A stretch of DNA of 64,000 nucleotides, from contig JAMPEA010000001.1 of NCBI GenBank assembly GCA_023665365.1, positions 1 to 64,000 on the forward strand, read 5' to 3'. How positions within the stretch are numbered: position 1 is the stretch's first letter; every line of letters starts with the position of its first letter. The notes below the pieces were generated by a model. The model worked only from the letters and a program-made list of their open reading frames with translations. It made no database searches and was not told the DNA's origin. A program made the translations under genes and the position numbers. Positions 31,920 through 57,924 of this stretch are shown in pieces. The stretch is from Bacillota bacterium. GTDB lineage: Bacteria > Bacillota > Clostridia > Christensenellales > CAG-917.

Positions 31920-31996
31920 CGGGGTGTAGCGCAGCTTGGTAGCGCATCTGCTTTGGGAGCAGAGGGTCGGGAGTTCAAATCTCTTCACCCCGACCA
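31920..31996 (+). tRNA. trnP: tRNA-Pro (anticodon TGG)
   Basis: 77 nt; acceptor CGGGGTG/CACCCCG, anticodon stem TCTGC/GCAGA around TTTGGGA, CCA encoded. First gene of the cluster. Confidence 0.96.
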
Positions 31997-32038
31997 AACG
32001 TAACGCTTGCGTCAGAGCGACTTCATAGATGATGATTC

Positions 32039-32115
32039 GGGCCTTTAGCTCAGTTGGTTAGAGCAGTCGGCTCATAACCGATCGGTCCGCGGTTCGAGTC
32101 CGTGAAGGCCCACCA
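32039..32115 (+). tRNA. tRNA with anticodon CAT (elongator Met, or Ile2)
   Basis: 77 nt; acceptor GGGCCTT/AAGGCCC, anticodon stem GTCGG/CCGAT around CTCATAA, CCA encoded. It is not an initiator tRNA, as the acceptor is fully paired. Elongator Met and the lysidine-modified Ile2 species share this anticodon and cannot be separated by eye. Confidence 0.93.
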
Positions 32116-32134
32116 AAATCAATCTAAAAAACGT

Positions 32135-32211
32135 GGCCCGGTAGTACAGTTGGTCAGTACGCCAGCCTGTCACGCTGGAGGTCAGGGGTTCGAGCCCCCT
32201 TCGGGTCGCCA
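32135..32211 (+). tRNA. trnD: tRNA-Asp (anticodon GTC)
   Basis: 77 nt; acceptor GGCCCGG/TCGGGTC with two G-U pairs, anticodon stem CCAGC/GCTGG around CTGTCAC, discriminator G, CCA encoded. Confidence 0.96.
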
Positions 32212-32217
32212 AACAAT

Positions 32218-32253
32218 TATATGTGGCAGTGACGCTTGTCACTGCCACATATA
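32218..32253. repeat. Perfect 16-bp palindrome between tRNA-Asp and tRNA-Phe
   Basis: TATATGTGGCAGTGAC pairs with GTCACTGCCACATATA around a GCTT loop. No T run follows, so it is not an ordinary terminator, and three further tRNAs lie downstream. Confidence 0.8.
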
Positions 32254-32279
32254 TGAAAGTCGCAATCAAAACGACAAAT

Positions 32280-32355
32280 GCCTCGGTAGCTCAGGTGGTA
32301 GAGCAAGGGACTGAAAATCCCTGTGTCGGTGGTTCGAGTCCGCCCCGAGGCACCA
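32280..32355 (+). tRNA. trnF: tRNA-Phe (anticodon GAA)
   Basis: 76 nt; acceptor GCCTCGG/CCGAGGC, anticodon stem AGGGA/TCCCT around CTGAAAA, CCA encoded. Confidence 0.96.
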
Positions 32356-32360
32356 ATTAT

Positions 32361-32436
32361 GCTGGTGTAGCTCAACAGGCAGAGCAACTGATTTGTAATC
32401 AGTAGGTTGTTGGTTCGATTCCGATCACCAGCTCCA
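32361..32436 (+). tRNA. trnT: tRNA-Thr (anticodon TGT)
   Basis: 76 nt; acceptor GCTGGTG/CACCAGC, anticodon stem ACTGA/TCAGT around TTTGTAA, CCA encoded. Confidence 0.96.
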
Positions 32437-32447
32437 AAACTGAATAC

Positions 32448-32532
<85 letters not shown>

Positions 32533-32534
32533 CG

Positions 32535-32557
32535 AAAACACGCGCAAGCGTGTTTTT
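32535..32557 (+). terminator. Terminator of the tRNA cluster
   Basis: ACACGC/GCGTGT stem with GCAA loop, flanked by AAAA and TTTTT. Confidence 0.85.
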
Positions 32558-32801
32558 GTAATTTGTGGGGCAGAGTGGATTTAGCGCAATTACATTGCGC
32601 CACCGCTAAGCGGTGCGAACCACCGTTCGGTGCTGACCGCAAGCGAGGGAGAAGCAAGCACGAAGTATTTGCAAAAACCGAGTGCAGTGGACATAGATAA
32701 CAAAAACAAATGCGCGCAACGCGCGTAGATTGCAAAAGCAATCGTTTTGTTATCGTAGACGCTTCGAGCGTAGCGAGCAAGCTCAGCTCTGCGCTATTAA
32801 A
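32558..32801. other. Hairpin-rich DNA between the two copies of the tRNA-Tyr end
   Basis: No plausible gene. Short perfect hairpins follow one another: GCGCAA-TTACA-TTGCGC, ACCGC-TAA-GCGGT, CACCG-TTC-GGTG, and GATTGC-AAAA-GCAATC. GATAACAAAA near 32695 and TTTTGTTATC near 32745 form a 10-bp outer stem enclosing the last of these plus GCGCGCAACGCGCG, which makes a three-way junction possible. At 32565-32580 there is an imperfect inverted copy of the tRNA end. It could be the remnant of an excised element or a structured RNA. Confidence 0.5.
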
Positions 32802-32822
32802 CGAATCCACCCCTGCCCACCA
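32802..32822 (+). repeat. Direct repeat, copy 2 (displaced tRNA-Tyr 3' end)
   Basis: Exact 21-base copy of 32512-32532 with no tRNA body in front of it. Confidence 0.85.
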
Positions 32823-32995
32823 TGTAAAGCCCAAAACGATTGCGTTTTGGGCTTTACAATGAAGCGCCGACAAAAGTCGGCATGAAAAATGAAGACGCAC
32901 TGCTAATGAAGACGCTTGCGCTAATTGGCAGAATTCGGCGCTTCGCTTCATTATTCATTAGGAGTGAAACGACGACTTCATTATTCATTTATTTT
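32823..32995. repeat. Palindromes and short repeats before the four-helix-bundle gene
   Basis: A perfect 16-bp palindrome (32823-32858, ATTG loop) is followed by GCCGAC-AAAA-GTCGGC, an inverted pair GAAGCGCCGA (32861-32870) / TCGGCGCTTC (32935-32944), and direct repeats of AATGAAGACGC and CTTCATTATTCATT. No reading frame here looks coding. Confidence 0.65.
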
Positions 32996-53455: not shown

Positions 53456-54508
53456 ATGGACATTAAAAGAAGATTATCAAGACAAGTCGCAGTAGGCGAT
53501 ATAAAGATAGGCGGCGACGCGCCAATATCGGTGCAGTCGATGCTAAATACCAAAACTACGGACGTAGAGGGCAGTATAAGGCAGATAAACGCTTTGAAAG
53601 AAGTCGGGTGCGACCTCATACGCCTTGCCGTTCCCGACGAGGCGTCTTGCGAGGCGTTTGGCAAAATAGCTCGCCGTACAGGCTTGCCGCTTATTGCAGA
53701 CGTGCATTACAGCTATAAACTTGCGCATCTCGCACTCGATAACGGCGCAAAGAAAATACGTATCAACCCGGGGAATATGCGCGACTTTGCCGAGATAAAA
53801 CCGCTTGCAAAACACATGATTGATATGGGAGTCCCCGTGCGAGTAGGCGTAAACGGCGGCTCGCTCGACCCAAAGTATAAGGGAATGGACGAGGCAAAAG
53901 CCCTGTCGGAAAGTGCGCTCGAATGTGCAAACGTTTTCGAAAGCCAAGGTATGCGCGATATAGTCGTTGCAATCAAGGCAAGCGATACAAATATCAATAT
54001 AGAGGCAAACCGTATTCTTGCCAAAGCGTGCGACTATCCTTTGCATATAGGAGTCACCGAGGCGGGTACTCTGCGCACGGGACTCATAAAATCCGCAATA
54101 GGTATAGGAACGCTACTGAGCGAGGGCATTGGCGATACGATACGCGTATCGCTTTCAGCCGACGTAACGGAAGAAGTGCTTGCAGGGAAGAAGATTTTGC
54201 AGACGCTCGGCGTAAAGAAAAACGCTGTCGAAGTTGTATCCTGTCCCACCTGCGCCCGCACAGAAATCGACGTGGAAGGGCTTGCAAACACCGTCGAGCG
54301 AATGACCGTCGGCATAAGCAAACCTCTTATAATTTCCGTGCTCGGTTGTCCGCTTAACGGCATAGGCGAGGGCGAAAACAGCGATTTGGGCATAGCGGGA
54401 GGCAAGGATAAATCGGTCATACTGCTTGACGGCAAAATCTACAAGACAGTGGACAATTCGTCGCTTTTAGACGAATTTAAACGTCTGCTTGATATGAAAA
54501 CAAAATAA
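53456..54508 (+). CDS. ispG: 4-hydroxy-3-methylbut-2-en-1-yl diphosphate synthase (IspG)
   Basis: Penultimate enzyme of the MEP pathway, an iron-sulfur reductase. TIM-barrel start with PISVQSMLNTKTTDVEGS, then the [4Fe-4S] ligands Cys263 and Cys266 (SCPTCART) and Cys298 (GCPLNGIGE), with Glu305. 350 residues, the short bacterial form. With dxr here and ispH at 22 kb, three MEP genes lie in the window. Confidence 0.97.
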   Translation: MDIKRRLSRQVAVGDIKIGGDAPISVQSMLNTKTTDVEGSIRQINALKEVGCDLIRLAVPDEASCEAFGKIARRTGLPLIADVHYSYKLAHLALDNGAKKIRINPGNMRDFAEIKPLAKHMIDMGVPVRVGVNGGSLDPKYKGMDEAKALSESALECANVFESQGMRDIVVAIKASDTNINIEANRILAKACDYPLHIGVTEAGTLRTGLIKSAIGIGTLLSEGIGDTIRVSLSADVTEEVLAGKKILQTLGVKKNAVEVVSCPTCARTEIDVEGLANTVERMTVGISKPLIISVLGCPLNGIGEGENSDLGIAGGKDKSVILLDGKIYKTVDNSSLLDEFKRLLDMKTK

Positions 54509-54589: not shown

Positions 54590-56179
54590 ATGTACACTAA
54601 GTTTTTCGACGAATTTATAAAAGCGACGGACGGCAAATATCCTATGTTGAAGTTTTGCGGAGCAAAGTACTCTCGCAAAAAAAATCTGCTTACCGTAAAT
54701 TTTATCATATCCGCTTTTGAAATACAGCAGTTTTCAGAGGAACAAAAGGCGGGAGTTTTAAACGCGGTCAAATCCATTTTCCCCGGAATTGAGGTGCAAA
54801 TAGCGTATACTCGCACGTTCGCGGACGATTTGGTTGTGAAAAACAAAATTTTGGAATTTTTTAACAAAAATAATCAAATGCTTTTCAGAAGCATCGGCGA
54901 GGATAATTTGAGTATGAATATCGACGAAGAACATATCAACGTCACTTTCAAACTCGATACGCCGATATACAAAATGTTCACAGCCGGCACTCTCAGAGAG
55001 GATTTGACCGATTATCTCGATAAATCTTTCAATCAAACCGTTTCCATTCGCGCAGCGGAGTGCGTTTTGTCCGATACGGACGCAGATTGGGATTTTTCGG
55101 CAACGTCCAACATATCGACCGCCGATATTGCAAACCTTAGACTGATAAAAATCGACGTGGGCGAAAAGGCTATGGCGCGCGCGAAGATAGACGGAATTTC
55201 TCAAATGCCGCGTTACATATCCGACGTTAAATCCGAGAGTAAAAGCTGCGTTCTGTGCGGAAAGGTGTCAAACGTATCCAAGAGGTTTTACAACAATAAA
55301 AAATTCAATCCCGACGATAAAAAATCGGGTCCCGAAAAACTTCCGCTCATCAAGTTTATGATTGACGACAGCACAGGCAAGATGGATTGCACGTGTTTTC
55401 CTCGCGTAGACGACGCAGACGACCTCGAAACTATGCTCAACACCACTCCCGAAGTTGTTTGCACGGGCGACATATCACGATATAACGGCGCGCTGTCAAT
55501 GACGGCATCGGCGGTATTCGCTTGCAAAATCGACTATAACAGCATCAACGTAGCAACAAGCAAACCCGTTCCGTCTCATTATAACTTCGTCTATCCCGAA
55601 AATTACGTCTCTATGTCCCAACAAAGCCTGTTAGATAGCGGAAAAGACGTAGTTTATCCGTATCTGCTCGGAAAAACTTTTGTGATTTTCGACCTCGAAA
55701 CTACTTCCAAATTTACAGAAGAAGCCGATATAATTCAGCTTTCGGCGCTTAAAATAACGGACGGAGTTGAAAAGCAAGTGTTTACGACGTTCGTAAAACC
55801 GCCGAACAAAATTCCCGCCGAAATAACGGAGCTCACTTCCATAGACGACGCTATGGTTGCAAACGCGCCCAAGATTGCGGACGTGTTGCCCGATTTTTAT
55901 AAGTTTACGCGCGGCGCGATACTCGTGGGGCACAACGTCATAGGATACGACTTTCCCATTATCAGACGTTTTGCCGAACCGCTCGGATATATGTTCGACA
56001 ACGATTTACTCGATACGCTCGTGCTGTCGCGTAAGTATCTGACCGAGATGACAAACCACAAACTTACGACTTTGAGCAAATCCCTCAAAATCGAGCACGC
56101 AAACGCCCACCGCGCCGACGCGGACGTGCTCGCCACGTGGGGAGTGCTTAAAGAAATAGCGAAAAGAATGGATAGTTAA
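54590..56179 (+). CDS. PolC-like protein reduced to N-terminal, OB and exonuclease parts
   Basis: A 529-residue protein at the position polC normally holds (rseP/ispG before, rimP-nusA after). The first 200 residues resemble the PolC N-terminal region. An OB-fold segment (LIKFMIDDSTGKMDCTCF) follows, with CxxC and CxC cysteines that may bind zinc. Residues about 362-525 form a DEDDh exonuclease: DLETT, HNVIGYDFPI, DTLVLSR and HRADADV. The split PHP domain that flanks the exonuclease in PolC is absent, and the gene stops where the polymerase should begin. It may proofread in trans or do repair. ATG 54590 follows GAGG; GTG 54569 is an alternative. Confidence 0.85.
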   Translation: MYTKFFDEFIKATDGKYPMLKFCGAKYSRKKNLLTVNFIISAFEIQQFSEEQKAGVLNAVKSIFPGIEVQIAYTRTFADDLVVKNKILEFFNKNNQMLFRSIGEDNLSMNIDEEHINVTFKLDTPIYKMFTAGTLREDLTDYLDKSFNQTVSIRAAECVLSDTDADWDFSATSNISTADIANLRLIKIDVGEKAMARAKIDGISQMPRYISDVKSESKSCVLCGKVSNVSKRFYNNKKFNPDDKKSGPEKLPLIKFMIDDSTGKMDCTCFPRVDDADDLETMLNTTPEVVCTGDISRYNGALSMTASAVFACKIDYNSINVATSKPVPSHYNFVYPENYVSMSQQSLLDSGKDVVYPYLLGKTFVIFDLETTSKFTEEADIIQLSALKITDGVEKQVFTTFVKPPNKIPAEITELTSIDDAMVANAPKIADVLPDFYKFTRGAILVGHNVIGYDFPIIRRFAEPLGYMFDNDLLDTLVLSRKYLTEMTNHKLTTLSKSLKIEHANAHRADADVLATWGVLKEIAKRMDS

Positions 56180-56270: not shown

Positions 56271-56316
56271 ATAAGTAATCCTTACTTAGAGTGAGCCTGT
56301 GCTCACTCTTTGTTTT
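56271..56316 (+). promoter_or_regulatory. rimP leader with terminator hairpin (probable attenuator)
   Basis: A 9-bp stem AGAGTGAGC/GCTCACTCT with CTGT loop (56288-56309) and TTGTTTT lies after the promoter and before rimP. A TAAGTAA-TCC-TTACTTA hairpin just 5' overlaps it by one base. A terminator inside the leader implies regulated readthrough, as known for rimP leaders in Firmicutes. Confidence 0.6.
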
Positions 56317-56358: not shown

Positions 56359-56835
56359 ATGGCAAACGAAGTCACATTTATAAGCGAGTCGGATATAGCG
56401 GCTGTAAACGCCGCGCTTACAAGCGTCGTTGCGGACGGCTTCGACGGCGTGGAGGTTGTCGAAGTCAAATTCTTCAAGCAATACGGCACGCCTGCGGTGG
56501 AGTTGCTTATTTGGAAGAAGGGCGGCGTTACGTTAAACGACTGCGAGGCGGTGCATAACGTCGTTTCGGCGGAGCTTGATAAATTCGATGCCGCATTTTC
56601 GGAGGCGTACAACCTCAACGTATCCTCGCTCGGTCTTGACAGAAAGATTGTCACCGACGACGATTTCCGCCGCGCGCTCGATACCGAAATCGAGTGCATA
56701 GACTCAAACAAAAAGAAAATACACGGGGTGCTTAAAGCATACGATAGCGAAAATATCGTTTTGTCGGACGGCGCTCACGAAAAAAATATTAAAAGAAACA
56801 TTTTGACCAAGGTACAACCGTACGTTAGGTTTTAG
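56359..56835 (+). CDS. rimP: Ribosome maturation factor RimP
   Basis: Assists 30S assembly. N-terminal domain with VEVVEVKFFKQYGTPAVELLIWKKGGVTLNDCEAVHNVV and EAYNLNVSSLGLDRKI (family YxLEVSSPGLDR, here with Leu for Pro), then an SH3-like C-terminal domain. 158 residues. ATG 56359 follows GAGGA. First gene of the nusA-infB operon, 12 bases before nusA. Confidence 0.94.
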   Translation: MANEVTFISESDIAAVNAALTSVVADGFDGVEVVEVKFFKQYGTPAVELLIWKKGGVTLNDCEAVHNVVSAELDKFDAAFSEAYNLNVSSLGLDRKIVTDDDFRRALDTEIECIDSNKKKIHGVLKAYDSENIVLSDGAHEKNIKRNILTKVQPYVRF

Positions 56836-56847
56836 GAGGACAGAGCA

Positions 56848-57924
56848 ATGATTAACAGAGAGTTCTTCCAAGCGTTAGATGAGTTGGAAAGAGAGTACAG
56901 AATTCCAAAGGAATCTATGGTGGAATCAATCGAAGCGGGTATGGCGTCGGCTTACAAAAAAGAATACGGCTTTACGAGTCCGATTTCCGTCCGCCTCAAC
57001 GAGGAGAAGATGACGTATAAAGTATACGCGCATAAGCTCGTCGTCGAAGAGGTCGAGGACGACGATACTCAAATCTGCCTCGAAGACGCGCAGTATATCG
57101 ACAAAAAATACAAAGTCGGCGATGTCGTTATCGAGGACATTACCCCCAAAGATTTTTCGAGAATTGCCGCTCAAACCGCAAAGCAAGTCATCTTGCAACG
57201 CATCAACGATATCAAGAAGGATATGATTCTCAACGAGATGAGCCGCCGTCAAGGCGAGATAATCAGCGCAATCGTCAGACGCAAGGAGGGCAACACGGTT
57301 TTCGTGGAAATCTCCGGCACGCAGATGGAAGGCGTTTTGATGCAGTCCGACCAAGTCCCGACAGAGACTTACAACGTAAACGACGTTATCAAAGTTTACG
57401 TCAAAAAAATCAGAGAATCTTTACGCGGCGGAGCGCAAGTCGTGGTTTCGAGAAGCGCGGCGGGATTTGTACGCCGTCTGTTCGAGCTCGAAGTTCCCGA
57501 AATCAAGGCGGGGCTCGTCAAAATCGTCAATATCGTCCGTGAAGCGGGCTTCCGCACTAAACTTTCGGTCAGAAGCGAGGACCCGAATATCGACGCAGTA
57601 GGCTCGTGCATTGGAAACAAGGGTGTTCGCGTGAATAATATAATAGCGGAACTCGGCGGAAACGAAAAAATCGACGTTGTGGAATACTGCGACGATTCAA
57701 TCGAATATATAGCCCGCGCTTTGAGTCCCGCGCAGGTCTTGCTCGTGTCCATCAACGAGGAGGAAAAAAACGCCCGCGTAATCGTCCCCGACGAGAAGCT
57801 CAGCCTTGCAATCGGCAGAAACGGTCAGAACGCAAGACTTGCCGCCAAGTTGACCGGTTGGAAGATAGACGTAAAGCCCTATTCCACTCTCAGCGCAACC
57901 GAAGAAGAGCAAGATGCCGAGTAA
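56848..57924 (+). CDS. nusA: Transcription termination/antitermination factor NusA
   Basis: RNA polymerase-binding factor. N-terminal domain (FFQALDELEREYRIPKESMVESIEAGMASAYKKEYG), S1 domain near 135-200, and two KH domains (DPNIDAVGSCIGNKGVRV, LSLAIGRNGQNARLAAKLTGW). 358 residues, the short Firmicute form without acidic repeats. AGGAGG precedes the ATG. Its 3' end overlaps the next gene by 11 bases. Confidence 0.97.
   Translation: MINREFFQALDELEREYRIPKESMVESIEAGMASAYKKEYGFTSPISVRLNEEKMTYKVYAHKLVVEEVEDDDTQICLEDAQYIDKKYKVGDVVIEDITPKDFSRIAAQTAKQVILQRINDIKKDMILNEMSRRQGEIISAIVRRKEGNTVFVEISGTQMEGVLMQSDQVPTETYNVNDVIKVYVKKIRESLRGGAQVVVSRSAAGFVRRLFELEVPEIKAGLVKIVNIVREAGFRTKLSVRSEDPNIDAVGSCIGNKGVRVNNIIAELGGNEKIDVVEYCDDSIEYIARALSPAQVLLVSINEEEKNARVIVPDEKLSLAIGRNGQNARLAAKLTGWKIDVKPYSTLSATEEEQDAE

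Follow-up and report, generated by a model that had tools for sequence, protein, structure and literature searches.

Locus organization

The window, a stretch of 64,000 nucleotides comprising positions 1–64,000 of contig JAMPEA010000001.1 from a Bacillota bacterium of the order Christensenellales, contains a polC locus with the order rseP-ispG-X-rimP-nusA, in which X is a short polC-derived gene. The upstream genes, named from their translations, are pyrH, frr, uppS, cdsA, dxr, rseP and ispG, and those downstream are rimP, nusA, ylxR, an L7Ae-like gene, infB, rbfA, nrnA, truB and ribF. Elsewhere in the window six tRNA genes are clustered at 31920–32529, and a probably spurious minus-strand ORF of 244 aa (32217–32951) overlaps part of this cluster. 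The features of the locus are as follows.

53456–54508, + strand: ispG, upstream neighbour (polC-locus synteny)
54590–56179, + strand: stand-alone exonuclease gene derived from polC; product of 529 aa, or of 536 aa from GTG 54569
54590–55069, + strand: PolC N-terminal domains NI and NII, two type II KH-like folds, residues 1–160 (hhalign and AlphaFold2)
55157–55534, + strand: OB domain, residues about 190–315 (hhalign and profile match)
55535–55672, + strand: linker in place of the N-terminal half of the PolC PHP domain, carrying a clamp-type motif
55619–55633, + strand: candidate sliding-clamp-binding motif QQSLL
55673–56173, + strand: DEDDh exonuclease domain (RNase_T and PolC exonuclease matches)
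55691–55705, 55931–55951 and 56108–56125, + strand: exonuclease motifs DLETT, HNVIGYD and H..D, respectively
56288–56309, + strand: terminator-like hairpin 3′ of the short gene (consensus scan only)
56359–56835, + strand: rimP, downstream neighbour (polC-locus synteny)
56848–57924, + strand: nusA, downstream neighbour (polC-locus synteny)

The reading frame is open from GTG 54569 or ATG 54590 and stops at 56179; ATG 54590 is the likely start because GAGG lies just upstream and the starts of homologues coincide with it. The ORF ends at the exonuclease and contains no polymerase core, and is followed by the hairpin and by rimP, which starts at 56359. Neither half of a PHP domain was found in searches before and after the exonuclease, and the short chain, stopping where it does, has no C-terminal QxxLF clamp motif of the PolC type. 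The sequence-only reading of this region, that polC gene order persists with neither PHP domain nor polymerase, is thus upheld.

Relationship of the short protein to PolC

The short protein is what remains of PolC at its own locus. Profiles of 68 short-form N-termini and of full-length PolCs from the same order align over 275 columns (hhalign probability 99.7, E 6e-26), with probabilities of 97.2 for the N-terminal domains alone and 99.0 for the OB domain alone; the OB profile also matches the OB domain of G. kaustophilus PolC (E 2.4e-9). The exonuclease matches Pfam RNase_T with E 4.7e-30 and, within NCBIfam, scores best against the PolC exonuclease (E 5e-41), and all five DEDDh residues are satisfied by DLETT, HNVIGYD and HRADAD in the window's protein. 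A PolC-like N terminus and OB segment joined to a complete DEDDh exonuclease, as first read from the sequence, are therefore confirmed by hhalign, the Pfam and NCBIfam matches and the motif check.

An AlphaFold2 model built from the family alignment has a mean pLDDT of 90.6 for the whole protein, with an arrangement of domains that is without confidence (pTM 0.52), and its top Foldseek match is the full-length PolC 9qpc_A. Because the exonuclease dominates the fold search of the full model, the N-terminal 165 residues were folded alone, giving two KH-like halves at pLDDT 94.6. PolC NI and NII are likewise reported as KH-like (PMC3919608). Tau domain V is absent among the matches listed for the N-terminal fold search, an absence that carries no weight against a relationship. 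In a tree of exonuclease domains with just three outgroups, the short forms join PolC and lie apart from the three other DEDDh domains with support of 97/99, though the tree does not bring them together in a single clade.

A zinc site had been suggested for CxxC/CxC cysteines near the OB domain. C227 is present in nine of 70 homologues and C276 in 25 of 70, and a conserved metal site at these residues is rejected for lack of conservation.

Polymerase content of the genome and of the order

The genome containing the window is 1.59 Mb and 99.5% complete. Profile searches give a single PF07733 match, which is DnaE at a whiA-dnaE locus, and TIGR01405 picks out only the short PolC, DnaE and two exonuclease or OB matches of lower score; no PolC polymerase was found elsewhere in the genome with either profile. 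The second exonuclease match is rejected as a part of PolC; it is a 443-aa protein with a membrane anchor (contig C29, L158:630–1961), and its C-terminal DEDDh-like domain is degenerate.

Across the order, 120 genomes from 33 families were sampled, all of them draft assemblies. DnaE is the only polymerase beside the short form in 16 families, and it accompanies full-length PolC in the other 17. By our count a PolC polymerase is present in none of 82 genomes of the short-form families versus 36 of 38 genomes of the remaining families, and genomes of the short-form families have one full DnaE each as against no PolC polymerase in any sampled. As the earlier reading had proposed, replication has moved to another polymerase, and these genome searches identify DnaE as the sole C-family replicase of the lineage. 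A complete polC elsewhere, coupled with grouping of the short gene among DnaQ-type or DinG-type exonucleases, is contradicted by the genome searches, hhalign and the exonuclease tree. The short gene is in every genome of the short-form families that is at least 90% complete, and the genomes in which it was not detected are 64–87% complete. It encodes the only RNase_T-type exonuclease found in several genomes (G013, G026, G069, G078 and G065).

The two exceptions among the 38 genomes (G079 and G104) have a DnaE like that of the PolC-bearing group as judged by PF07733 match length. In G079 (family f10) PolC was not found though other members of the family carry it, and its DnaE is of the PolC-bearing type; the gene lies in a gap of the assembly or was lost independently. 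An exonuclease match in G079 is rejected as PolC, as it is a Cas2-DEDDh fusion within a pair of Cas1 and Cas2-DEDDh genes (L157). An extra PF07733 match in G003, a genome of the same genus as the window's, is also rejected as PolC; it lies in an 806-aa ORF (L155:1403–3823) with a metallo-beta-lactamase-like half and a degraded C-family polymerase palm.

Distribution and origin of the short form

Short-form sequences from 15 families were aligned (70 sequences), and a variant occurs in a sixteenth (f30). A survey of the locus in related genomes places the short form at the polC locus; nearly all 70 aligned sequences have the same neighbours, and short form and full-length PolC occupy one and the same locus across the order. 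The f30 variant (G071, L156:2154–3500) encodes 448 aa at the same ispG-rimP locus and has the N-terminal domains and exonuclease with the OB domain absent. The N-terminal domains are the sole module common to all variants.

Among 341 genomes of the class, a clear short form is found within the order only, with full-length PolC alone elsewhere; no clear case was found in about 320 genomes of the class outside the order, where two frames of 479–502 aa are probably contig ends. Since the class as a whole has full-length PolC, the short form appears to be derived. In a DnaE tree of 20 genomes a branch with support of 100 divides those with DnaE only from those with PolC, and full-PolC genomes cluster in a NusA plus IspG tree with weak deep support; both trees are compatible with one origin of the short form. 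The whiA-dnaE synteny is common to the two groups, which argues that DnaE was inherited and not imported. With this synteny, and with a DnaE tree that follows the split, horizontal replacement of DnaE is unsupported. The DnaEs of DnaE-only genomes (L102–L114) have an NNR/NDR signature where those of PolC-bearing relatives (L115–L121) have NS, and their PF07733 match is longer.

Most of the pairs compared from families with an active exonuclease show their highest conservation in that domain (76%, against 47% in the N-terminal domains, in a close pair). Where measurable, dN in the short form is well below dS, with ratios of 0.03–0.30.

A clamp-type motif in the linker

The linker between the OB and exonuclease domains usually contains a clamp-type motif, Q-x-S/D/N-L-F or, as the broader clade consensus, Q-x-[SDN]-[LIMF]-[FL]. 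The clamp-binding consensus is QxxLF and the PolC version is QLSLF (PMC12309361). Counted as Q-x-[SDNTAGKE]-[LIMF]-[FL], it is present in 29 of 37 linkers from other families than the window's, against a mean of 0.7 and a maximum of 4 after shuffling, and in 13 of 33 from that family (shuffled mean 0.43, maximum 3). Kinship inflates these counts, since shuffling takes no account of relatedness between sequences, but most families with the short form have the motif, and its pattern is rare in the rest of the proteins. Nearly all full-length PolCs have theirs at the extreme C-terminus. Versions in the window's own family are often weak (QQSLL, GFLDD), and the window's QQSLL is a weak match. A clamp-type motif at the position of the PHP N-terminal half is a new feature, absent from the sequence-only reading, and by its sequence it is likely a candidate clamp-docking site.

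Loss of the exonuclease active site in two families

The DEDDh residues are complete in 64 of the 70 aligned sequences. The six exceptions all belong to families f16 (L073, L075 and L077) and f19 (L074, L076 and L078), in which every DEDDh residue is lost and the protein is kept. As f16 and f19 sit apart in the DnaE tree, exonuclease death probably happened twice. Between relatives the dead domain is conserved like the remainder of the protein (70% vs 62% for the N-terminal domains in one pair), so the f16 and f19 proteins seem to be still under selection; saturation of synonymous sites makes a rate ratio for the dead domain unobtainable. Retention of the protein after loss of the active site in two families suggests that it probably has a non-catalytic role as well. 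Two f16 members (G105 and G057) additionally have separate DnaQ-like proteins.

Proposed function

The short PolC is probably a clamp-docked trans proofreader for DnaE, descended from an ancestral PolC without its PHP and polymerase parts. Within a Christensenellales-like clostridial order, the PolC of the forebear of a large clade lost both PHP halves and the entire polymerase, leaving the N-terminal domains, OB domain and exonuclease as the one small protein now seen at the polC locus, and the vertically inherited DnaE at whiA-dnaE became the sole C-family replicase, as the genomes now show. The linker motif may dock on the sliding clamp, the OB domain may bind the single-stranded 3′ end and the KH-like N-terminal domains may touch DnaE or the clamp loader, while the DEDDh domain, with a predicted 3′-5′ activity, would trim misincorporations by DnaE. 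In f16 and f19, where the catalytic residues are gone, catalysis was lost later, with perhaps only a docking or scaffold role left. In B. subtilis the PolC exonuclease corrects DnaE errors in trans within a stable DnaE-PolC-template complex (PMC5627055), and by this analogy trans proofreading can be inferred with good reason. The simplest reading is that the clade may have fixed in evolution the division of labour seen between PolC and DnaE of B. subtilis.

Several observations complicate this proposal. Each of 20 DnaEs examined has a complete PHP site (HHDHEHCDH), and DnaE may therefore do its own proofreading, which would make that by the short PolC redundant. With this and the dead exonucleases of two families, proofreading cannot account for the protein in every family. 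The missing OB domain of f30, the often weak motif of the window's family and the low-confidence domain arrangement of the AlphaFold2 model also count against the proposal. It is conceivable, if tentatively so, that the PolC front end of KH-like N-terminal domains, OB domain and clamp-docking linker is a non-catalytic replisome tether in its own right. If so, its job survived the loss of the polymerase, a single event for the whole clade, and later two losses of exonuclease activity, and would reveal that the N-terminus of PolC, which is poorly understood, has a function apart from catalysis.

A rather unlikely reading is that the protein is mainly a non-catalytic replisome adaptor with a secondary exonuclease that can be dropped. 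Its N-terminal domains and linker would connect the clamp and single-stranded DNA with either DnaE or the clamp loader. The f16 and f19 proteins, which keep ORF, locus and even identity along their length (dead domain included), would fit such an adaptor, as would the presence of the N-terminal domains in every variant. However, the perfect active sites of the other 64 sequences and the high conservation of the exonuclease in active families indicate that catalysis is strongly selected in most of the clade. It is unlikely that the protein is instead a clamp-associated exonuclease for repair or Okazaki fragments, with DnaE proofreading for itself by its PHP domain. The intact PHP residues favour this, as do the several genomes with no other RNase_T-type exonuclease, in which other exonuclease jobs may have passed to the short PolC, but its descent from a replicative proofreader and the trans proofreading of DnaE in B. 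subtilis (PMC5627055) point the other way.

A decaying polC relic with no selected role, to which the dead exonucleases and the few incomplete genomes of the window's genus with an undetected short gene might point, is extremely improbable and largely refuted by the conservation data, namely an ORF intact over 16 families, the low dN/dS ratios, the complete catalytic residues in most sequences and the presence of the gene in all the more complete genomes. Equally improbable is a split PolC with its polymerase half elsewhere, or loss in assembly, which is rejected in spite of the draft assemblies because TIGR01405 and PF07733 are blank for PolC polymerase in this genome and the 16 families, yet positive in 36 of the 38 others.

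The short form represents a natural experiment in replisome evolution within a large group of gut Clostridia, in which an essential replicative polymerase was discarded and a proofreading module was kept and apparently gained a new clamp-type motif. It offers a direct test case for the role of the PolC N-terminus and exonuclease toward DnaE, a question that arises from the trans proofreading of B. subtilis and from the PolC plus DnaE1 system of Clostridia, which is uncharacterized. Ibezapolstat and other PolC inhibitors are predicted to have no target in this large bacterial group, which also provides matched lineages for testing whether PolC causes the strand bias of Firmicutes.

Comparison with known systems

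Surveys of C-family polymerases describe DnaE1-only, PolC plus DnaE1 and PolC plus DnaE3 systems, PolC lacking the exonuclease, and DnaE1-only Clostridia (PMC3919608, PMC12926913). No description of a short PolC with exonuclease but no polymerase was found in the searchable full-text literature, outside which subscription papers and preprints largely fall. The PolC without an exonuclease that occurs in Clostridia and Negativicutes (PMC3919608) also reflects loss of a PolC domain in the same broad group, but is the mirror image of the short form, with the exonuclease gone and the polymerase kept. Clostridia without PolC resemble the present clade in having DnaE as sole replicase, but a kept N-terminal, OB and exonuclease remnant is not described in the parts of the reports consulted (PMC4070872, PMC3919608).

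PolC-type DNA polymerase III of Firmicutes lies at the same locus as the short form and has the same succession of N-terminal domains, OB domain and DEDDh exonuclease. The short form differs in having neither PHP half, no polymerase core and no clamp motif at the C terminus; its clamp-type motif lies in the linker between the OB and exonuclease domains. E. coli DnaQ, the epsilon subunit of Pol III, is likewise a separate DEDDh protein of the proofreading type alongside a DnaE replicase, and the linker motif of the short form is a candidate counterpart of its clamp-type motif. Close homology to DnaQ was not found for the short form, which is PolC-derived, with the PolC exonuclease as its best family match and with PolC N-terminal and OB domains before the exonuclease. 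Its motif precedes the exonuclease, whereas that of DnaQ follows it, and the DnaE of its genomes, unlike that of the E. coli system, has an intact PHP site. The arrangement would parallel the alpha-epsilon-clamp assembly of E. coli, made of PolC parts.
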